Positions 18,086 to 63,107 of a stretch of 64,000 bases of DNA are shown here, piece by piece. Every line of letters begins with the position of its first letter. Positions within the stretch are counted from its first letter, which is position 1. The translations under genes were made by a program, and so were the position numbers. Source of the DNA: Granulicatella sp. WM01 (GTDB lineage Bacteria; Bacillota; Bacilli; Lactobacillales; Aerococcaceae); contig NZ_SPPB01000003.1 of the NCBI RefSeq assembly GCF_004570605.1, positions 1 through 64,000 on the forward strand. Direction: 5' to 3'. The notes below the pieces were generated by a model. That model was not told where the DNA came from. It saw nothing but the letters and a program-made list of their open reading frames with translations, and did no database searches.

Positions 18086-20338
18086 TTATTTTTCTGACGT
18101 ATGACGTTTTGAACCGTGAGAGCCTATTATTAAAAAGAGAATGCCTGATAAAATAAACGATATAGCTTGATATATGCTATGTTTCGGTGTATCTGCTCCT
18201 GTTTTTGGCAATAATTTTTCGTCACTATCTCTTTTATCGGCAGTTGTTTTATCATTGTTATTTTTATGTCTTTTATCATCATTTGCCTGATTAGTTGACT
18301 GTTCTGTTTTCTCTAAATCTTTTGGTGAACTAGGATTTGTTCCTATGGTTCCTTTATCTTCTTGGGCAGATACTTCTTCTTTTTTGTCGGTATCTTTATT
18401 AGTGTTATCTATCTTTTCTAATGAGCTTATTGGTTTATTCCCATTATTTTGAATTAATGGTGTCTTATGTTCCGGATTTTCTTTAGGAACACTATCGCGT
18501 TTATTCTCTGGTTGTTTTGCTTCACTTGGATTGGTTTTGCTTGATGAGGTATTCTCTTTTGTTTCTAACGGAATTGAACTATTATTTGGCGTTTCAGTAT
18601 CTTTATTAGAAATATTATCCTCTTTATTTTCTGGTTGCTCTGTTTCACTTGAATTAGCTTTGCTTGATGAGGTATTCTCTTTTGTTTCTAACGAAGTTGA
18701 ACTATTATTTGGCGTTTCAGTATCTTTATTAGAAATATTATCCTCTTTATTTTCTGGTTGCTCTGTTTCACTTGAATTAGCTTTGCTTGATGAGGTATTC
18801 TCTTTTGGTTCTAACGAAGTTGAACTATCATTTGGAGTTTCAGTATCTTTATTAGAAATATTATCCTCTTTATTTTCTGGTTGCTCTGTTTCACTTGAAT
18901 TAGCTTTGTTTGATGAGGTATTCTCTTTTGGTTCTAACGAAGTTGAACTATCATTTGGAGTTTCAGTATTATCATTAGGGGGTGTATCCATATGATTTGT
19001 ATCATTTGATAAAGGGCTAATCACTTGAATGGTAACATGTAAGTCTGCTGTTGTATTGTCCGGGTAAGTAATCTGGAGTGTAGCACTTTTTTCACCGATA
19101 GTACTTGTATTTGGAGCTTGACTCCATGCTATTGTCGTTCCTTGTGGAAAAGAATCTGCATTTTGCAATACTTCAGAAGCAGATAACGTATGATGTTGTT
19201 CAACTTGATTGGTTTCTTTAGCTAATGGCGGATATACCTCCTTGTAAATAGGAAGATATGTATATGTCACAGTTTGTGTACCGTTTAAAAGAGTCAATGT
19301 ATTTTCTGACTGAAATCCTTTAGCAGTAGCTAAATTATTTCTAACTAAACGATGTTTATCAACCATAATATCCGTTCCAATAATTTCTTTAGTAGAACCT
19401 AACAAACCTGTTAGTTCTCTAGGTTGTCTAATCTCTTCCCCTGTCAAATCATTGATATAACGGATAATAATTTTAGGGTTATTTACTGTATAGCCAAGTG
19501 AACTCAATTTAATTTGTTGTTTATTTGTTCCGTCAATAGTTGAGGCAAATACTCCAAAAGAACGCAGTTGTGCTTCCGATCTATTAAATCGGCTATCTAC
19601 AGTTTTAGTAAAAGTAGTTTCCCCATACGTGAACGTAAAAATTGGATTTTCTTTCCCACCATAAGTTAATGAGAAAGGTACAAAGGTATTACTTGGCGTT
19701 CCTTCGAGGAAATCTGCGCCAGTAGACGATACAAATCCTCTACTATTCGAGTAGATGAAACTTCCAAACGCTCTCCCTTTTGCACCAAATAAAAATGGGT
19801 CGCTCTCAGAATAACGATTTCCACTTGGATTTGTTGAATTATGATGGGTATCTAGTTTGAACCCAAATGAATTTTTTATTCCACCTAATCCTAAAGACTC
19901 TCCAGAGTGCCCAAAGTTCCCTACATTCGCATCAAGAAACAGAAAAGATATGCCATCACCTGCTTTAAATGTACTCGCTGAGTTTTGCGTTTTGACTTTA
20001 TCACCCAAATTAATTTGCCCAGCAATACTAAAAGGACGATGAATATCAATCTTTTCTGATAAATATATCCCTCCAACTTGATTTTCTCTATCTTCAGTCA
20101 AAATTAAAGCACCGTCTTCTCCTACATCTGCTTGACCATATAACCAAAGTGAATCATAAATTTCTTCTAGTGTCGTTACCTCGATAGCCTCTGGTTCTGT
20201 GTATGTCGCATCACTCAAATTTGTCTGTGCATAGACTATTGTCATTGCATTCATTGATGATACTACTGGGGGCATATAAGCATAGAACAAACTAGCTGAA
20301 ACTGTCAATACAGCACACCGTCTTTTGAAATTTCTCAT
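18086..20338 (-). CDS. LPXTG-anchored adhesin with L-type lectin, MucBP and Rib-like domains
   Basis: This is a cell-wall-anchored surface protein of 750 residues. A signal peptide covers about residues 1-37. An L-type (legume-like) lectin domain spans about 50-285, with the metal/sugar-loop phrases 'AGDGISFLFLDANVGNFG' and 'SFGFKLDTHHN'. A MucBP-type segment follows at about 288-365 (IIIRYINDLTGEEI...VTYTYLPIY), then a Rib-like domain at about 372-445. A low-complexity stalk at 458-621 is built of four 41-residue repeats (TETPN..ENTSS..KANSSETEQPENKEDNISNKD). The C-terminus has LPKTG at 710-714, a hydrophobic helix and a basic tail, so sortase A would attach it to peptidoglycan. The domains suggest binding to glycans or mucins. 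It stands alone. Confidence 0.9.
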   Translation of the reverse strand: MRNFKRRCAVLTVSASLFYAYMPPVVSSMNAMTIVYAQTNLSDATYTEPEAIEVTTLEEIYDSLWLYGQADVGEDGALILTEDRENQVGGIYLSEKIDIHRPFSIAGQINLGDKVKTQNSASTFKAGDGISFLFLDANVGNFGHSGESLGLGGIKNSFGFKLDTHHNSTNPSGNRYSESDPFLFGAKGRAFGSFIYSNSRGFVSSTGADFLEGTPSNTFVPFSLTYGGKENPIFTFTYGETTFTKTVDSRFNRSEAQLRSFGVFASTIDGTNKQQIKLSSLGYTVNNPKIIIRYINDLTGEEIRQPRELTGLLGSTKEIIGTDIMVDKHRLVRNNLATAKGFQSENTLTLLNGTQTVTYTYLPIYKEVYPPLAKETNQVEQHHTLSASEVLQNADSFPQGTTIAWSQAPNTSTIGEKSATLQITYPDNTTADLHVTIQVISPLSNDTNHMDTPPNDNTETPNDSSTSLEPKENTSSNKANSSETEQPENKEDNISNKDTETPNDSSTSLEPKENTSSSKANSSETEQPENKEDNISNKDTETPNNSSTSLETKENTSSSKANSSETEQPENKEDNISNKDTETPNNSSIPLETKENTSSSKTNPSEAKQPENKRDSVPKENPEHKTPLIQNNGNKPISSLEKIDNTNKDTDKKEEVSAQEDKGTIGTNPSSPKDLEKTEQSTNQANDDKRHKNNNDKTTADKRDSDEKLLPKTGADTPKHSIYQAISFILSGILFLIIGSHGSKRHTSEK
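18476..18967 (-). repeat. four tandem 123-bp repeats inside the lectin gene
   Basis: The units are 18967-18845, 18844-18722, 18721-18599 and a diverged 18598-18476. The first three are nearly identical in DNA. Each codes 41 residues rich in Ser, Thr, Glu, Asn and Pro. The unit keeps frame, so copy-number changes would alter stalk length without inactivating the gene. Confidence 0.9.
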
Positions 20339-22746: not shown

Positions 22747-23611
22747 GAACACTCCATTAAACAACACCTCTACCGATAGTCTTGTACTCACAGTAAACTG
22801 CACCATACCTCGAACTGTACCTCTTTCAATATGTGGCATTCTATCAAACATCAACTCTATCAATAGGACGCTAATTACATACAACATTATACTCACAGTA
22901 AACTGCACCATACCTCGAACTGTACCTCTTTCAGTATGTGGCACTCCATTAAACATCAACTCTATCAATAGAACGCTAATTACATACAACATTATACTCA
23001 CAGTAAACTGCACTATACCTCGAACTGTACCTCTTTCAATATGTGGCACTCTATCAAACATCAACTCTATCAATAGAACGCTAATTACATACAACATTAT
23101 ACTCACAGTAAACTGCACTATACCTCAAACTGTACCTCTTTCAATATGTGGCATTCTATCAAACATCAACTCTATCAAGAGAACGCTAATCACACACAAC
23201 ACTCTACTCACAGTAAACTGCACTATACCTCAAACTGTACCTCTTTCAGTATGTGGCACTCTATTAAGCATCAACTCTACCAATAGAACGCTACTCACAT
23301 ACGACATTCTACTCACAGTAAACCGCACCATACCTCGAACTGTACCTCTTTCAATATGTAGCATTCTATCAAACATCAACTCTACCAATAGGACGCTAAT
23401 CACACACAACATTCTACTCACAGTAAACTGCACTATACCTCAAACTATACCTCTTTCAGTATGTGGCACTCTATTAAGCATCAACTCTACCAATAGGACG
23501 CTAATCACACAACACTCTACTCACAGTAAACTGCACTATATCTCGAACTGTACCTCTTTCAATATGTGGCATTCTATTAAGCATCAACTCTACCAATAGG
23601 ACGCTATCCAC
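22747..23611. repeat. array of about eight 105-bp tandem repeats
   Basis: The motif CACCATACCTCGAACTG or close variants starts at 22801, 22906, 23011, 23116, 23221, 23326, 23431 and 23534. The period is 105 bases, except for a 2-base deletion in the last unit, with a partial unit in front. Units differ by a few percent. Because 105 is divisible by 3, reading frames stay open by chance. One minus frame encodes a 35-residue hydrophobic repeat but has TGA stops in three units, and one plus frame is open but lacks start codons. I regard the array as non-coding. Confidence 0.9.
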
Positions 23612-37736: not shown

Positions 37737-37830
37737 TGCCTTTTTTGAAGAGTGTATGACACAAACTTATTAATAGAATAGTGACTTCACTAAATCCTAA
37801 AATAGTTTGTATGACTTCAAACGCACCCAC
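37726..37830 (-). CDS. TxpA/holin-like type I toxin peptide
   Basis: A 34-residue frame with a GTG start sits 7 bases after GGAGG. The product, GAFEVIQTILGFSEVTILLI in its first part, is one hydrophobic helix followed by the basic tail KKGNKK. This is the pattern of the 'putative holin-like toxin' peptides related to B. subtilis TxpA/BsrG (xVYExLxxMxxFGxxxxxLI...KK). Such peptides insert in the membrane when their antisense RNA is lost. The gene is followed by a terminator shared with the convergent antitoxin RNA. Nine bases in the leader (GGTGGCTCT, minus strand, 37896-37904) can pair with AGAGCCACC just past the 3' end. A short Fst-type toxin was considered, but the motif fits TxpA better. 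Confidence 0.72.
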   Translation of the reverse strand: MGAFEVIQTILGFSEVTILLISLCHTLFKKGNKK

Positions 37831-38341
37831 ACTAGCTCCTCCTTTCTAAAGATTTTGATGAATTGCCCATAGGCATCACCTCTCTTTCAAAGTTTAGAGC
37901 CACCGTCTTCACTTATCTACTCTTTTAGTCTACCATATCCCATACATGTTACCTAGCTCTTTTGCCATTTTAGTTTCGCTATACCAAAATGGTTTAATAC
38001 ACACCAAATACGCTTATCTTCACTTATAAAACATGTGAAATTCATGATAACTAAGAATTTTTTTGACAATTTTTTCAATTTTTCATGATACATTATACAT
38101 ATCCCCCTAGATTTTACCTCATATTCTCTTGATACTCATTATCTTTTGCAACTTCTCCTTTGTCATCATATCCTGCAGTATACCGTCTTGTTTTGTGAGT
38201 GTAATTTATCTTCCTATAATAAACAAAAATAATTTTTACTTTTTGCTCATATATAAGCACAAACTACTCCCCTATCTTCATTAATTCTCTAATCTGATAA
38301 GGCTATTTCTTATGCACTTTTAAATATACACGATAATATCA

Positions 38342-41888: not shown

Positions 41889-44153
41889 TTATAAAGAAAC
41901 AACTACCTTGTCTTGCAATTGATACATGTGTTGAGCAATTTGTATTGTTAAACTTTCTCCGCTTATTAATGTAACTACTGCTTCCTCTTTTGTCACGTGA
42001 ACAGATAATAAACGCTCTCTAAAATTAATTTTGAACGTATATCCTTCCCATTGTTTTGGAACAAATGGATTGAAGATTAACTTACCATGATAAACACGCA
42101 TACCTGCAAAACCTTGAACAATGGACAACCAACTGCCACTCATAGATGTAATATGTAGCCCGTCTTCTGTATCATTATTGTAATTGTCTAAATCTAAACG
42201 CGCTGTTCTTGCGTATAATTCAACTGCTTTATCTTCCTTTCCCAACTCTGCTGCCAAAATCGAGTGAATACATGGAGAAAGCGATGATTCATGTACTGTT
42301 AACGGTTCATAAAAGTTGAAATGACGTTCTTTTTCCTCTTGCGTATACATATCGTTAAAGAAATAAATACTTTGTAGTACATCTGCTTGTTTGATATATG
42401 GTGAACGTAAAATTTTATCCCAAGACCATTTCTGATTTAACGGTCTATCTTCCGGAGATAATGCTGAAACAGGCTGTAAATCTTTATCTAAAAATGTATC
42501 GTGTTGAACAAAAATACCTAATTCTTCATCATAAGGCAAATACATATTAGCTATAATATGTTCCCATTGTCCTATTTCCTGCTCAGTAATGTCTAATTCT
42601 ACTCGTTTATCATGGCTAATATCTTTTAAAATTTGGCATGTGTACATCAATGTCCATTTCGCAATATTATTTGTATGATAGTTATTATTCACGTTGTTTT
42701 CATATTCATTCGGTCCAGTCACACCATGAATCATGTATTGCTGATGACGTTTTGAAAAATGCACACGATCCGCCCAAAAACGTGAAATACCTACTAAAAC
42801 ATCAATCCCTTTCGTCAGCACGTACTCACTATTTCCTGTATAATTCGTATAATTATAAATAGCATACGCTATTGCACCGTTACGATGAATTTCCTCAAAT
42901 GTAATTTCCCATTCATTATGGCACTCTACACCTGTAAATGTCACCATTGGATAAAGTGCCCCTTTTAATCCTTGTTGTTTTGCATTATGTATAGCACCAT
43001 CTAATTGGTTATGACGGTACATGAGCAATTCCTTAGTGACTTGTTCATCAGCAACTGATAAATACATTGGCACAATATAGGCTTCTGTGTCCCAATACGT
43101 TGCACCACCATATTTTTCTCCAGTAAATCCTTTAGGTCCAACATTTAAACGATAATCTTCACCATAGTATGTCGAAAATAATTGAAAAATATTAAAGCGA
43201 ATACCTTGCTGTGCTTCATCATCTCCAAAAATGTCAACATCTGCTTTTTGCCAACGACTTTCCCAAACTTTTTGATGAGCATTTTTTAATGCATCAAATC
43301 CCAACTGTGTAGCCTCCTGTAACAAATGATTTGCCACTTCACATTGTTTATCCACTTCAACATCTCGGCTTGTCACAACAGCTACATATTTTGTTAATGT
43401 TAAACTTTCTTGTACGCTTAAACTAACTTGAACACTTTGTCTTGCCAAAAACTCTTGGACGTCCTCAGTCTGTGGCTCATGTGACCATTCATTATGCATG
43501 GCTGTTAATACTGTAAATCTCGGTGCTTCAAACGGATTTTCTACTGTTTGTGTTTGAATATAAAGAGGCTCCTTGCCAAAAGATACCGCTTGCCAAAACT
43601 GTTCATCATAATTACTATCTTCATTTCTTACATTTCCATCTAATTTTGACACCATTTTAATAGATACTTGATCGCCACTTAACACGCTAGCACTTACCTT
43701 AACAATAGCCAATTCTTTTTGAGCAACACTTAAAAATCGCTCAAATGTAAATCTCACCGTAGCATCAGATCTTATCAATGTAAATTCGCGTGTCAAAATA
43801 CCGTTCTTCATGTCTAAATCGAGAACAAAATCTTCAATAGTATCTACAGCTAAATCTAAATCCTGTCCATTTACTTCAATATCTACTGCAATAAAATTAG
43901 TCGCATTAATTACTTTTCCAAAATAATGCGGATAGCCATTTTTCCACCAGCCAACCCGTGTTTTATCAGGATACCAAACTCCAGCAATATACGTTCCTAA
44001 ATGTGTATCCCCAGAATATCTCTCTTCAAAATATCCACGCATTCCCATATAGCCATTACCAATAGATGTTAAACTCTCTTGTAGACGTTTATCTTCTTTT
44101 TCAAGTGTATGACTCCTAACATGCCAACTATCAATGTCAAATATTCTTTTCAT
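41889..44153 (-). CDS. malP: maltose phosphorylase (GH65)
   Basis: This enzyme splits maltose with inorganic phosphate into glucose and beta-glucose 1-phosphate. The 754-residue protein has the N-terminal beta-sandwich ('[19 protein letters not shown]'), a central (alpha/alpha)6 barrel and the catalytic acid motif [24 protein letters not shown]. '[22 protein letters not shown]', a substrate-binding phrase, is also present. Pairing with pgmB supports maltose rather than trehalose or kojibiose as substrate. It is the first gene of malP-pgmB-glucosidase-malR, with its own promoter and operator upstream. Confidence 0.95.
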
Positions 44154-44237
44154 AAATCAACACTCCTTGCAAAAAATCGTTTTCACTTTATACACCTATT
44201 ATGCCACACAAATAAATTTGTACAAGTCATTTGATAC

Positions 44238-44251
44238 TGTTACCGATAACA
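44238..44251. promoter_or_regulatory. mal operator, malP promoter
   Basis: TGTTACCGATAACA lies 12 bases upstream of the minus-strand -35 TTGTAC (44220-44225), with -10 CATAAT at 44198-44203. Confidence 0.85.
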
Positions 44252-44253
44252 AA

Positions 44254-44807
44254 AACAGGATGTGAGATGTCGTGCGTTACGAGCGATGAAAAAATTGTGC
44301 CAGAGCGTTCCATATTCAATGTGTCGCATAGCGACAACTGAATATGAGCGACTAACAACGTTTTTCAAGCGAGTGCGACATTGAACTCAACTATAACAGG
44401 ATGTGAGGAAAGGTATGCCACGAACGAAGCTAAAAGTGCTTGAGCGACTAAAATGCTACGTGTACATAACACACGGCATTTTGGAGCGAACACATCTTTT
44501 TCAAGTGAGTACCTTTCCGAACTCAACTGTAACAGGATGTGAGATGTCGTGCATTACGAGCGATGAAAAAATTGTGCCGGAGCGTTCCATATTCAATGTG
44601 TCGCATAGCGACAACTGAATATGAGCGACTAACAACGTTTTTCAAGCGAGTGCGACATTGAACTCAACTATAACAGGATGTGAGGAAAGGTATGCCACGA
44701 ACGAAGCTAAAAGTGCTTGAGCGACTAAAATGCTACGTGTACATAACACACGGCATTTTGGAGCGAACACATCTTTTTCAAGTGAGTACCTTTCCGAACT
44801 CAACTCC
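44254..44807 (+). repeat. two 277-bp tandem copies, each of two related structured sub-units
   Basis: Copy 1 (44254-44530) and copy 2 (44531-44807) differ at only two or so bases. Each consists of sub-unit A (about 141 bp) and sub-unit B (about 136 bp). Both begin AACAGGATGTGAG and end GAACTCAACT, and share GAGCGA and TTTTTCAAG blocks. Between these, A has outer arms ATGTCG/CGACAT and an inner hairpin ATATTCA..GTCGC/GCGAC..TGAATAT. B has outer arms GGAAAGGTA/TACCTTTCC and an inner hairpin AAAATGC/GCATTTT. The stems differ in sequence but keep pairing. A decayed further unit follows at about 44808-44870. The GC content is higher than the flanks. Confidence 0.85.
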
Positions 44808-44870
44808 AGGATATGAAAAATCGCTTGTTTATGAGTGATGAAAATGCCACCCTATCCGTTCATGAAACTA

Positions 44871-45090
44871 AAACTATGCACAAAAACTATGTATTAAAAC
44901 ATCAGCACTTTCCTATTCATTTAGTATCTTTTTCAATCCTTTAAACACTCCTAAATAGCAACCATATACTACAATCTCACATATACCATACATTTAGACC
45001 TATACTTTAAGAGTTGAATATGTTAAAATAATTTAGTGCATAAGTACTATCTGTTAAATGTATATAAAATATAATATAAGGAGAAAAAAT
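44871..45090. other. intergenic upstream of rpoY
   Basis: No gene. It should hold the rpoY-rnjA promoter; several TTGAAT/TTAAGA and TAATTT-like boxes near 45009-45037 are candidates, but none is convincing. Confidence 0.4.
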
Positions 45091-45303
45091 ATGATTTTTA
45101 AAATGACTTATCAAGAAACAAAACACGAAGCACCACGTCGTGAAAACACAAAAGCCCTTTATATTGAGGCAAGTTCAAAAGTAGAAGCTCGTCAGTTAGT
45201 TGAACAAAACACCCCCTATAACATCGAATTTATCCAACCTTTAGACGAGGCTCACTTAGCCTATGAGCAAAAAAATCCTGATTTCAAGCTAACGGTATTC
45301 TAA
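45091..45303 (+). CDS. rpoY: RNA polymerase epsilon subunit RpoY
   Basis: This is a small cytosolic subunit (70 residues) that binds core RNA polymerase in Firmicutes. The sequence [20 protein letters not shown] with '[37 protein letters not shown]' is the DUF1447 pattern. The start at 45091 follows AAGGAGAAAAAAT; the 11-codon longer frame is rejected. It ends one base before rnjA begins, the conserved rpoY-rnjA pairing. Confidence 0.95.
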
Positions 45304-45304
45304 C

Positions 45305-46981
45305 ATGAAAGTTAACTTACAAAATAATGAAACAGGAGTCTTTGCTTTAGGGGGACTTGGAGAAATTGGAAAAAACATGTATGGTGTCCAATTCCAAGAT
45401 GAAATTATTGTCATTGATTGTGGGGTAAAGTTCCCAGAAGATCATCTGCTCGGCATTGATTACGTTATTCCAGATTATAGCTATCTCATTCAAAATAAAC
45501 ACAAAGTTAAAGCACTTGTTATCACACATGGTCATGAGGACCATATTGGAAGTATCCCATTCTTATTGCGTGAATTGAATATTCCAATTTATGCTGGACC
45601 TTTAGCTTTAGCACTTATCCGTAACAAGTTAGAAGAACACGGTTTATTACGAGATGCCATTTTAAATGAAATAAATGCAGATAGCGTAATCAAATTCCGA
45701 AAAACAACTGTTAGTTTCTATTTAACAACACATAGTATCCCAGAGGCATTTGGTGTTATTATAAAGACACCATCTGGTATTATCGTATCTACTGGAGATT
45801 TCAAATTTGATTTTACACCAGTTGGAGAGCCAGCAGATTTACACAAAATGGCAAAACTCGGAGAAGAAGGTGTTTTGCTAATGCTGGGCGATAGTACCAA
45901 TTCCGAAATTTCTGGTTTTACCAAATCAGAAAAAGAAGTAGGTAATGCTATTAGAGAAATTATAAAAAAAATTGATGGACGCATCATTTTTGCAACATTC
46001 GCTTCTAACATTTCACGTTTGCAACAAGTGGTTGAAGTTGCTATCGAAACAAATAGAAAAATAGCTGTTTTTGGAAGAAGTATGGAATCAGCTTTTGTCA
46101 CAGGGCGCGAACTTGGTTATATTAAAGCCCCTAAAGATACCTTTATTGATGGACGAGATATATCAATGTATCCATCAAACGAAGTGATTATTTTATGTAC
46201 AGGTTCTCAAGGAGAACCAATGGCTGCACTTAGCCGTATTGCCAATGGAACACATCGACAAATTTCTATTCATCCAAATGATACAGTTATTTTCTCAAGT
46301 TCTCCAATTCCGGGAAATACTACAAGTGTGAATAAAGTTATCAATCTATTATACGCTGCAGGTGCAAATGTTATTCACGGAAAATTAAATAATATTCATA
46401 CATCTGGTCACGGTAGCCGCCAAGAACAAATGTTAATGTTGCGTCTTTTGAAACCAAAATATTTTATGCCTGTCCATGGTGAATTTCGTATGCAAAAGCT
46501 ACATGCCAATACAGCTGCAGAAGTTGGTGTTCCACTTGAAAATAGCTTTATTTTAGAAAACGGAGAAGTCCTTGCCATTACTGCAAATTCTGCTCGTAGA
46601 GCAGGACGTTTTATTGCCAATGATATTTATGTTGACGGTAGCGGCATTGGCGATATTGGAAATGTTGTTTTAAGAGATCGCCGCATTTTATCTGAAGAAG
46701 GCTTGGTTATCGTTGTAGCTACTATAGATATAGCAAATCGTACATTACTAGCTGGACCTGAAATGATGTCACGTGGTTTTGTATACATGCGTGAGTCTAG
46801 TGAGTTAATTAGTGATACGCAAAGTTTACTACGTCAAGTTATTTCTGACTACCTAGAAAGCGATGAAAACATTACAGAACGTCAACTAAAAGAATTATTT
46901 ATAAATACGCTTCAAGCACATTTATACGAACAAACTGGACGACGTCCAGTAATTATGCCAGTTGTTGTTTGTCTATCATAA
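45305..46981 (+). CDS. rnjA: ribonuclease J1
   Basis: This dual 5'-to-3' exonuclease and endonuclease is central to mRNA decay and rRNA maturation in Firmicutes. The metallo-beta-lactamase core has [11 protein letters not shown] (metal ligands) at about residues 77-87 and 'STGDFKFD'. The beta-CASP domain has '[19 protein letters not shown]' and '[11 protein letters not shown]', followed by '[12 protein letters not shown]'. The C-terminal domain is complete, and at 558 residues the length is normal. Pairing with RpoY identifies it as RNase J1 rather than J2. Confidence 0.96.
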
Positions 46982-61373: not shown

Positions 61374-63107
61374 TTATTCCTCCACTTCTACAACATCACC
61401 AAATAGTTCTGTTGCTTTACTAATAATTTCTGGTATTTCTTCTTTAATTTCTGTAATTGCCTCTTCTAGTGGCTCTAAATGTTCACTAGAACGTGCTGTT
61501 TGTGGTTCCAATTCTTCAACTAAAGTTGGGTGTAAATACTGTTCAAGTGTTCCCATTTTTTTAGATTGAACAAATTTATCTCTAATCGTTTGCCATTGAC
61601 TTAACGGCACACACTCAATACGACACGGGTGTTTAATCAAACGCTCTCCGTGTTGGCTTAAATCTTGTTGTAACGAGGTGTCTGTGGCCGTCATCTGACA
61701 AAGTACATCATACTCAAATCCCAAAACAATCCCATGTGGACTTGCTGCTAAAACGACTGATGAATTCAATTTACCTTGTTGTGATACACTCAAACATGAC
61801 ACAATATCGTGCCATTCCTCTTGAACAAGCTGTTTGTCTTTAGCTGTTGCTTGAGCTAAAACACTAAATACTTTTGACAAATTAGGTGTAAACTGCTTAT
61901 TATTTTGTCGTTTAGGAACATCTTTAATAGGCACTTTTTGAACATTTTCTTGTTTTTGAAGATGCTCAACTTGTTTCTTTAGTTGCTCCACAGTTTGCCA
62001 CAAGTCTTGAATTAAGGCATTATCGGCACTATTGCTAGCTTTCTTGTCCAATGCTTTTGCCATTTTGAGCGTAAATGTTTCAAGGTAAATATCTTTTTGT
62101 GTAGTTACCTTTAATGCCTGCTGAGTTAATGTTAATTCCTCAATCATTGCATAAATAAACTCGGAAGATATACTCGGCATAGAATCCAAAACATCTACTA
62201 ATGTGCCATCTGGTGATACAACTTGACTAATCAACATATCTCTAGCAAATATTAACAGTTCTTCAACAAAACGCCCTGCTTCTTTTCCATCACGTAACAC
62301 ACAGTGTAAGTCCTCTAAAGCTTTTGATGTATTCTGTTCATAAATGTTTATCACATAACTAAGCATCTGTTCATGAGATATGCTACCAGACACTTGTAAA
62401 GCATCCTCATAACGAACACCTTGATCACCATAAGAAATAGCTTGATCCAGCAAACTAAGTGCATCCCTCATGCCTCCATTAGCACTTTTAGCTATAATTT
62501 GCAATGCTCTATCGTCATATTCAATCTGTTCTTGTTCAAGAATATAGGTTAAACGCTCTTGAATATGTTGTCTTGTAATCCGCTTAAAATCAAATCGTTG
62601 AGCTCTTGAAATAATCGTCGCCGGAATTTTATGTGGTTCTGTTGTTGCCAAAATAAATATGACACTTTGTGTAGGCTCTTCCAACGTTTTCAATAATGCA
62701 TTAAACGCTCCAGTCGAAAGCATGTGTACTTCATCTATAATATACACTTTATACTGAACTTGTGTCGGTGCATATCTAGACTTATCCCGAATATCTCTAA
62801 TTTCTTCAACACCGTTATTACTAGCTGCATCAATCTCGATTACATCACCAAGGGTACCTTGTGTGATACTTTGGCAAACATCACAAACGTTACATGGCTC
62901 TCCATTCATTTGATTAGGACAATTTATCGCCTTTGCAAAAATTTTAGCCGCACTCGTTTTCCCTGTCCCTCTAGGTCCAGTAAATAAATATGCATGACTA
63001 ACTTTGTGAGATAAAATGGCATTTTTTAACGTTTGGCTAATCATATTTTGTCCCACAATATCTTCAAACTTTTGTGGTCTCCATACACGATACAACGCTT
63101 GATACAT
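61374..63107 (-). CDS. dnaX: DNA polymerase III gamma/tau subunit
   Basis: This is the ATPase of the replicative clamp loader and organiser of the replisome. The start MYQALYRVWRPQKFEDIVGQ is canonical. Walker A is GPRGTGKTSAAK, the zinc site CPNQMNGEPCNVCDVCQ and Walker B IIDEVHML; sensor 1 and arginine-finger regions follow. The C-terminal part from about residue 370 is the tau-specific extension. The start at 63107 follows TTGGAGGGAAAGC; a longer frame to 63131 is rejected. Confidence 0.97.
   Translation of the reverse strand: MYQALYRVWRPQKFEDIVGQNMISQTLKNAILSHKVSHAYLFTGPRGTGKTSAAKIFAKAINCPNQMNGEPCNVCDVCQSITQGTLGDVIEIDAASNNGVEEIRDIRDKSRYAPTQVQYKVYIIDEVHMLSTGAFNALLKTLEEPTQSVIFILATTEPHKIPATIISRAQRFDFKRITRQHIQERLTYILEQEQIEYDDRALQIIAKSANGGMRDALSLLDQAISYGDQGVRYEDALQVSGSISHEQMLSYVINIYEQNTSKALEDLHCVLRDGKEAGRFVEELLIFARDMLISQVVSPDGTLVDVLDSMPSISSEFIYAMIEELTLTQQALKVTTQKDIYLETFTLKMAKALDKKASNSADNALIQDLWQTVEQLKKQVEHLQKQENVQKVPIKDVPKRQNNKQFTPNLSKVFSVLAQATAKDKQLVQEEWHDIVSCLSVSQQGKLNSSVVLAASPHGIVLGFEYDVLCQMTATDTSLQQDLSQHGERLIKHPCRIECVPLSQWQTIRDKFVQSKKMGTLEQYLHPTLVEELEPQTARSSEHLEPLEEAITEIKEEIPEIISKATELFGDVVEVEE

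Follow-up and report, generated by a model that had tools for sequence, protein, structure and literature searches.

The tandem array described here is best read, at a probability of about 0.68, as stacked copies of a small non-autonomous mobile element that consists of a single hairpin and whose fold is under selection, probably on the transcript strand. It lies in a window of 64,000 nucleotides (the whole stretch of Granulicatella DNA that was analysed). Hairpins interspersed in bacterial genomes are usually recognised by conserved sequence; here the shape is kept and the arm sequence is nearly free. The hairpin family is apparently undescribed so far, and a literature search (PMC) for this repeat found no description. 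The features of the array and its neighbours are given below, where R1 stands for a covariance model with rough E-values, derived from two other genera in the taxonomic family.

41889 to 44153, minus strand: family-65 glycosyl hydrolase gene, divergent from rpoY (flanking context).
44254 to 44807, plus strand: tandem array, two 277-bp periods with spacers (period detection).
44257 to 44392, plus strand: unit 1, a 136-nt hairpin (R1 E 1.2e-6, and fold); GA/GA at 44264-44265 and 44383-44384, outer stem arms at 44266-44275 and 44373-44382.
44398 to 44528, plus strand: unit 2, a 131-nt hairpin of another stem type (R1 E 2.6e-8, and fold); GA/GA at 44405-44406 and 44519-44520, outer stem arms at 44407-44416 and 44509-44518.
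44534 to 44669, plus strand: unit 3 (136 nt), a copy of unit 1 with two base changes (R1 E 4.8e-7).
44675 to 44805, plus strand: unit 4 (131 nt), a copy of unit 2 (R1 E 2.6e-8).
44808 to 44849 (end approximate), plus strand: truncated fifth unit, left border AGGATATGAA and the start of the 5' half, assigned by eye against the third unit of contig C147 of the same genome.
45091 to 45303, plus strand: rpoY (PF07288; flanking context).
45305 to 46981, plus strand: rnjA (flanking context).

The two copies of the 277-bp period, at 44254-44528 and 44531-44805, mismatch at 2 of 275 positions (44276, G/A; 44302, A/G), in keeping with the roughly two differences given by an earlier note on this DNA. 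That note had also seen in each copy two sub-units that share their borders and differ in their self-complementary stems, and four such units are indeed present, all of which fold. They run head to tail, each a single long interrupted hairpin with AGGATGTGAG at its start and GAACTCAACT at its end, and units 1 and 2 have borders and layout in common while their arms differ. Against dinucleotide shuffles (200 for each unit), fold z-scores for units 1 to 4 were -3.08, -3.88, -2.90, and -3.88, with 0, 0, 1, and 0 shuffles folding equally well. GC content in the array is 0.433, above both flanks as the note had said (0.337 at 43850-44250 and 0.244 at 44871-45091; 0.338 in the whole window), and the decayed extra unit it placed behind the array is the truncated fifth unit that starts at 44808. 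The neighbours it named are confirmed for rpoY and rnjA on the plus strand, while its malP is assigned here at the level of a family-65 glycosyl hydrolase. The left border AGGATGTGAG may bear some likeness to a Shine-Dalgarno sequence.

Covariation across units from many loci supports the fold, which the note had taken to be a selected RNA or DNA structure. We extracted 46 distinct units, 32 of them in the 115-119 nt class, and picked 15 of these for diversity as alignment A3, which is gap-free once the apical loop is masked and was read against one structure of 32 pairs. In A3, 80.8% of cells are paired versus 56.8% when shuffled, and double-changed cells number 126 versus 43.8 in shuffles (sd 4.9) and 60 in the best slid control; the covariation score is 0.621, versus 0.197 shuffled and 0.230 for the best slid control, and only 2 of 500 shuffles had an equally high number of pairs with a double change. 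Two larger sets, which were aligned to the model and so lean towards it, gave 397 double-changed cells versus 125.8 shuffled (slid controls at most 125) in 45 distinct rows from 36 other loci, and 387 versus 120.6 (slid controls at most 148) in 53 units of genome G063. Covariation thus exceeds the controls in all three alignments, as the covariance check proposed in the note would have it. Helix S3 is weakly supported, with 48.4% and 42.8% of its cells paired, and in the 53-unit set the number of further pair types is not above shuffles (195 of 500 as high).

Several unpaired elements are as constant as the arms are variable. A tandem G.A mismatch (GA/GA) between border and outer stem is fixed in 136 of 147 aligned rows, a count that includes the same or identical units (49 of 53, 36 of 39, and 51 of 55 rows by set, the other four of the 55 being gaps). 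A GGA/GAA loop separates two inner stems in 47 of 53 G063 units, and a one-sided bulge keeps its place while the arms vary. Because these mismatches stay constant as the arms change, they point to selection on a shape. The border pairs themselves covary: in the 45-row set, column 6 is G-C (23 rows) or A-U (21) and column 7 is C-G (21 rows) or U-A (13), and column 4 is G-C in 47 G063 units and A-U elsewhere. In the arms, G.T outnumbers A.C by 123 to 74 cells in alignment A4 and by 67 to 38 in a further count, cells that are non-independent, with one column pair supplying 37 of the 123. This slight excess suggests that folding takes place on the plus strand, the one that corresponds to the mRNA where units follow genes.

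Two Trichococcus species and Lacticigenium (loci L218, L235, and L237) carry units with the same inner layout and other borders (AGAGTGCGAC ... GGAGCACGTTT, AGAGCGAGAT ... AGAACGCGTTT, and AATGGGTGAT ... AGAACCGTTCT); here too the border bases are mutually paired. At another locus, L129, the unit at 1396-1510 on the reverse strand is a chimera whose 5' half is of one type and 3' half of another, as expected from recombination between neighbouring units; its outer stem is unpaired in the predicted fold.

The hairpins proved to be widely dispersed, and searching related genomes with a covariance model, as the note had suggested, uncovered a large family. The same genome carries further arrays of this sort on contigs C44, C147, C153 (at another place there), C156, and C111. 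A plain sequence search of 60 genomes (this one and 59 relatives) found only a single 25-bp two-unit junction elsewhere, in another genus; with arm sequence so little constrained, the family escapes ordinary repeat searches. The junction pattern GAACTCAACT-N(0-8)-AGGATGTGAG, by comparison, is found in 6 genomes, this one included, among 76 of the taxonomic family, and the reversed control pattern in 0; units at these loci are mostly 115-119 nt long and have the same borders and very different arms, with several types per genome. R1 matches all four window units (E 2.6e-8 to 1.2e-6) and, at E <=0.01 with at most 54 candidates scored per genome, 44 of 76 genomes and 12 of 21 genera of the taxonomic family. 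Within a single genus (g9), matches range from 45 in the unit-rich genome G062 to 0 in G061. At E <=0.001, with 14 candidates scored per genome, a sample of 295 genomes of the order yields matches in 44, belonging to 20 of 75 genera; 16 of the 44 lie outside the taxonomic family, as counted by model score rather than by inspection of the sequences. The 53 units of G063 were found in 400 kb (weakest E 4.5e-6), which would amount to about 270 in its 2.03 Mb if evenly spread, and two further genomes gave 39 matches in 800 kb; some genomes probably hold hundreds of copies. Named genomes with matches number 6 of 24: three Trichococcus species, Lacticigenium naphthae, Ruoffia tabacinasalis (one match), and Enterococcus columbae (weak, E 0.002). 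The Enterococcus columbae locus, L219, has a AGGATGTGAA start around a different long hairpin, which could be a distant relative.

No match was found by R1 in two other genomes of the window's genus or by a DNA search of plasmid and phage collections, and the border junction had no exact counterpart in viral contigs. At gathering score, Rfam matched neither the array, in a scan of the window, nor 10 further loci; at E <=1, five loci yielded one match, to a miRNA family, at 26 bits versus a gathering score of 108.

Many copies sit at the 3' ends of genes, where the mRNA would include them. A placement sample took 400 kb each from G063, G072, and G010, with genes called by a rule that simply takes the longest frame. 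Of its 59 arrays, 29 begin within -2 to +7 nt of the stop codon of a co-oriented gene (the range tested being -4 to +8), as against 1.8-2.0% of random intergenic positions; G072 and G010 have many sites in common, so the 59 arrays are not independent cases. Only 1 of 59 has its 3' end adjoining a convergent stop. Of the 6 arrays in the genome from which the window comes, 2 sit flush against a stop codon, and in one of these the stop lies inside the border. In the Trichococcus group (the genus around G092), a border-like start immediately follows the stop codon at 29 of 29 loci examined, judged by eye, at three genes that we take from their translations, likewise by eye, to be ychF, groEL, and a third; R1, run on 28 of these loci, matches 23. 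The loci differ in how many units they hold, of which types, and in which order, and the first unit is a remnant or interrupted in at least two.

This placement invites the reading that the hairpin is a host-useful structure of 3' untranslated RNA that sets mRNA decay, processing, or termination and was spread by ordinary recombination. The sense-oriented arrays flush behind stop codons, the border-like starts behind the Trichococcus-group genes, the excess of G.T over A.C on the plus strand, and the fixed internal motifs all accord with it, and if units are kept for such a role they add up to an extensive level of 3' RNA structure as yet uncharted in this group. We nevertheless consider it unlikely, as the number, type, and order of units vary between species at the same gene, 30 of the 59 sampled arrays do not begin flush at a stop, R1 matches nothing in the two same-genus genomes, and units in G063 lie inside another repeat. 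The window array itself lies between divergent genes and so is not flush with a stop; it is probably a passenger there.

The evidence for movement comes mainly from that other repeat. G063 carries a second, larger repeat, of which 5 of 32 listed copies hold a hairpin unit at one exact point and 27 are empty, and two more filled copies lie outside the 32 listed. Empty copies have the sequence AAGCAAGC-GATGTGAATT or AAGCAAGC-GAAGCGAATT, or depart from these slightly. By eye, the inserts belong to three types; their left end varies by a few nt, and their right end abuts the border-like core GATGTGA or GAAGCGA in 7 of 7 filled copies. Comparison of filled with empty copies revealed no visible target duplication, for this one kind of site with its variable left end. 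The filled copies could represent fewer events followed by swapping of types, and the 27 empty ones could, strictly speaking, reflect precise excision instead of insertion. The earlier note had left the choice between a structured RNA and a mobile hairpin; these filled and empty copies in one genome favour the mobile hairpin. The second repeat itself (at L173:5190-5520 and elsewhere on C1 of G063) reads GAGCAGGAGTGGAGC ... GATCGTTAGCCATG ... CATGGCT and numbers at least 32 copies in 400 kb. Its fold seems to be branched, and at gathering score Rfam matched none of three loci that contain it (L180, L182, and L183).

A comparable site recurs at the ends of arrays. In 39 of 59, the array is followed by a further left-border-like sequence that scores above the 95% point of control positions, and within arrays the next unit's own left border occupies the place of this core. 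Units within G063 arrays run head to tail with spacers of 2-5 nt in 21 of 21 cases. Arrays were defined here by a shared strand; one inverted pair, formed by two classes, lies at 61635/61801. The first spacer base is A in 21 of 21 spacers in G063 and 5 of 5 in G072 and is T in 3 of 6 in G010, where one T-starting spacer is 9 nt long.

Closely related genomes show change at existing sites. No clean new insertion emerged between two species whose aligned pieces, 329 kb in all, are about 94% identical; at shared sites they differ in unit number, unit type, and a 48-49 nt inner piece, and internal deletions leave border scars. In one such pair of loci (L250:2572-2686 versus L279:10673-10835), about 49 nt inside a unit in G010 are absent from G072, with TAAT on both sides. 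An empty counterpart of the window array was not found, the two same-genus genomes carrying other sequence, without a unit, upstream of rnjA.

From these observations we suggest how the mobile hairpin may spread. An enzyme acting in trans would recognise the borders and G.A motifs of the single strand in its folded form rather than its arm sequence, so the arms could drift freely as long as they stay paired. New copies would be placed just upstream of the left-border-like core GATGTGA; repeated insertion there would stack copies in a single direction and leave the oldest unit, often truncated, at the right-hand end, as may be the case at 44808 in the window. Copies would persist mainly in sense orientation behind stop codons, where a stable hairpin in 3' untranslated RNA may be tolerated or mildly useful. 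A broader version, in which a hairpin superfamily present in several families of one order depends on an undescribed mechanism that reads shape, borders, and tandem G.A pairs instead of arm sequence, inserts upstream of a border-like core, and ties insertion or survival to stop codons of the same-sense gene, is possible yet doubtful. The mechanism would be an undescribed one because neither a Y1 transposase nor a reverse transcriptase was found in all carriers.

Among candidate mobilisers, the Y1 transposase (PF01797) was present in 16 of 30 genomes searched and missing from seven unit-rich ones (G062, G063, G064, G071, G072, G073, and G027), and reverse transcriptase was missing from nine carriers among 27 genomes searched, the window's own genome included; both were thus rejected as general mobilisers. 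A search of 1.2 Mb for a long copy with a gene inside, defined by matching borders and outer stem within 6 kb, found none: it returned nine pairs in G063 and 0 each in G072 and G010, versus five in a reversed-order control, and the nine were rejected since each joins one known unit's left end to another's right end (one spans 4.3 kb).

Among known repeats, REP elements come close. As described in PMC8266576, a REP is a palindrome of 20-50 nt that follows a tetranucleotide, mostly GTAG, is associated with the Y1 protein TnpAREP, and is often paired in inverse orientation as a BIME. The present units resemble REP/BIME elements with TnpAREP (RAYT) in their many intergenic copies, single-strand hairpins, some conserved mismatches, and tandem groups. 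A REP-like identity, with movement by a RAYT/TnpAREP-type Y1 (HUH) transposase, would fit these mismatched, high-copy, intergenic, and grouped hairpins and the distribution of PF01797 in over half of the genomes searched. This is very improbable given the seven unit-rich genomes that lack it, even if a Y1 gene could have been lost after the spread; moreover, the units have the border AGGATGTGAG and no GTAG at the foot, are 115-138 nt long, vary freely in their stems, and stand head to tail rather than as REP/iREP pairs. All REP-defining features compared (size and tetranucleotide, Y1 protein, and inverse pairing) are therefore lacking, and the REP-type identity that the note had named as grounds against its claim was not found.

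Least probable is drift with self-templated repair, in which template switching copies one arm onto the other and the fold is under no selection: replication template switching is a known mutational route for quasi-palindromes and the arms here match well, yet such repair would erase mismatches, and the GA/GA and GGA/GAA mismatches and the one-sided bulge are fixed while the arms vary.

Other small repeats share features with the hairpin array. PMC3049150 describes BOX, RUP, and SPRITE of pneumococcus as small, interspersed, highly structured, and probably parasitic repeats with changing module copy number and possible co-transcription with genes; BOX modules are arranged as boxA-boxB(n)-boxC, and the terminal inverted repeats of RUP resemble those of IS630-Spn1. 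The present units are likewise small, interspersed, highly structured, and probably parasitic, change in module copy number, and may be co-transcribed with genes. Unlike RUP, they show no terminal inverted repeats of the IS630-Spn1 kind, and, to judge by description, they are set apart from BOX by stacking whole units where BOX multiplies its middle module. The sequences of all three presumably differ from those of the hairpin units.

MITEs, according to PMC3049150, are AT-rich and have terminal inverted repeats and target duplications. Here the left border AGGATGTGAG and the reverse complement of the right border, AGTTGAGTTC, do not correspond by eye, and array GC exceeds that of the window (0.433 versus 0.338), whereas the highly base-paired secondary structure is present, as folds and covariation indicate. 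Of four MITE features, two are absent (inverted repeats and AT-richness) and one is present (structure). ERIC and Correia-type MITEs are palindromic inserts of about 100-160 bp in spacers, and the units resemble them in this. Integron attC sites are hairpins with variable arms and conserved ends that stack in one direction at a core; the units are alike in variable arms, constant ends, and one-directional stacking, and differ in having no cassette genes between them and another core. The repeat is best filed among interspersed hairpin repeats of the REP, BOX, and MITE kind, as a variant of its own.

A few further repeats and structures were noted in passing. Short modules occur within or between units at L323, L324, L297, L300, and L321 (e.g., with GTGACCGTACCGGTCA or with CAAACGTCACAGTGCGACGTTTG), where hairpins appear to be nested in hairpins. 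Elsewhere in the window, tandem repeats lie at 22785-23606 (105 bp, 7.8 copies) and 18500-18969 (123 bp, 3.8 copies), and positions 37760-37942 match the Listeria sRNA family rli28 at 73.9 bits, above its gathering score of 45.
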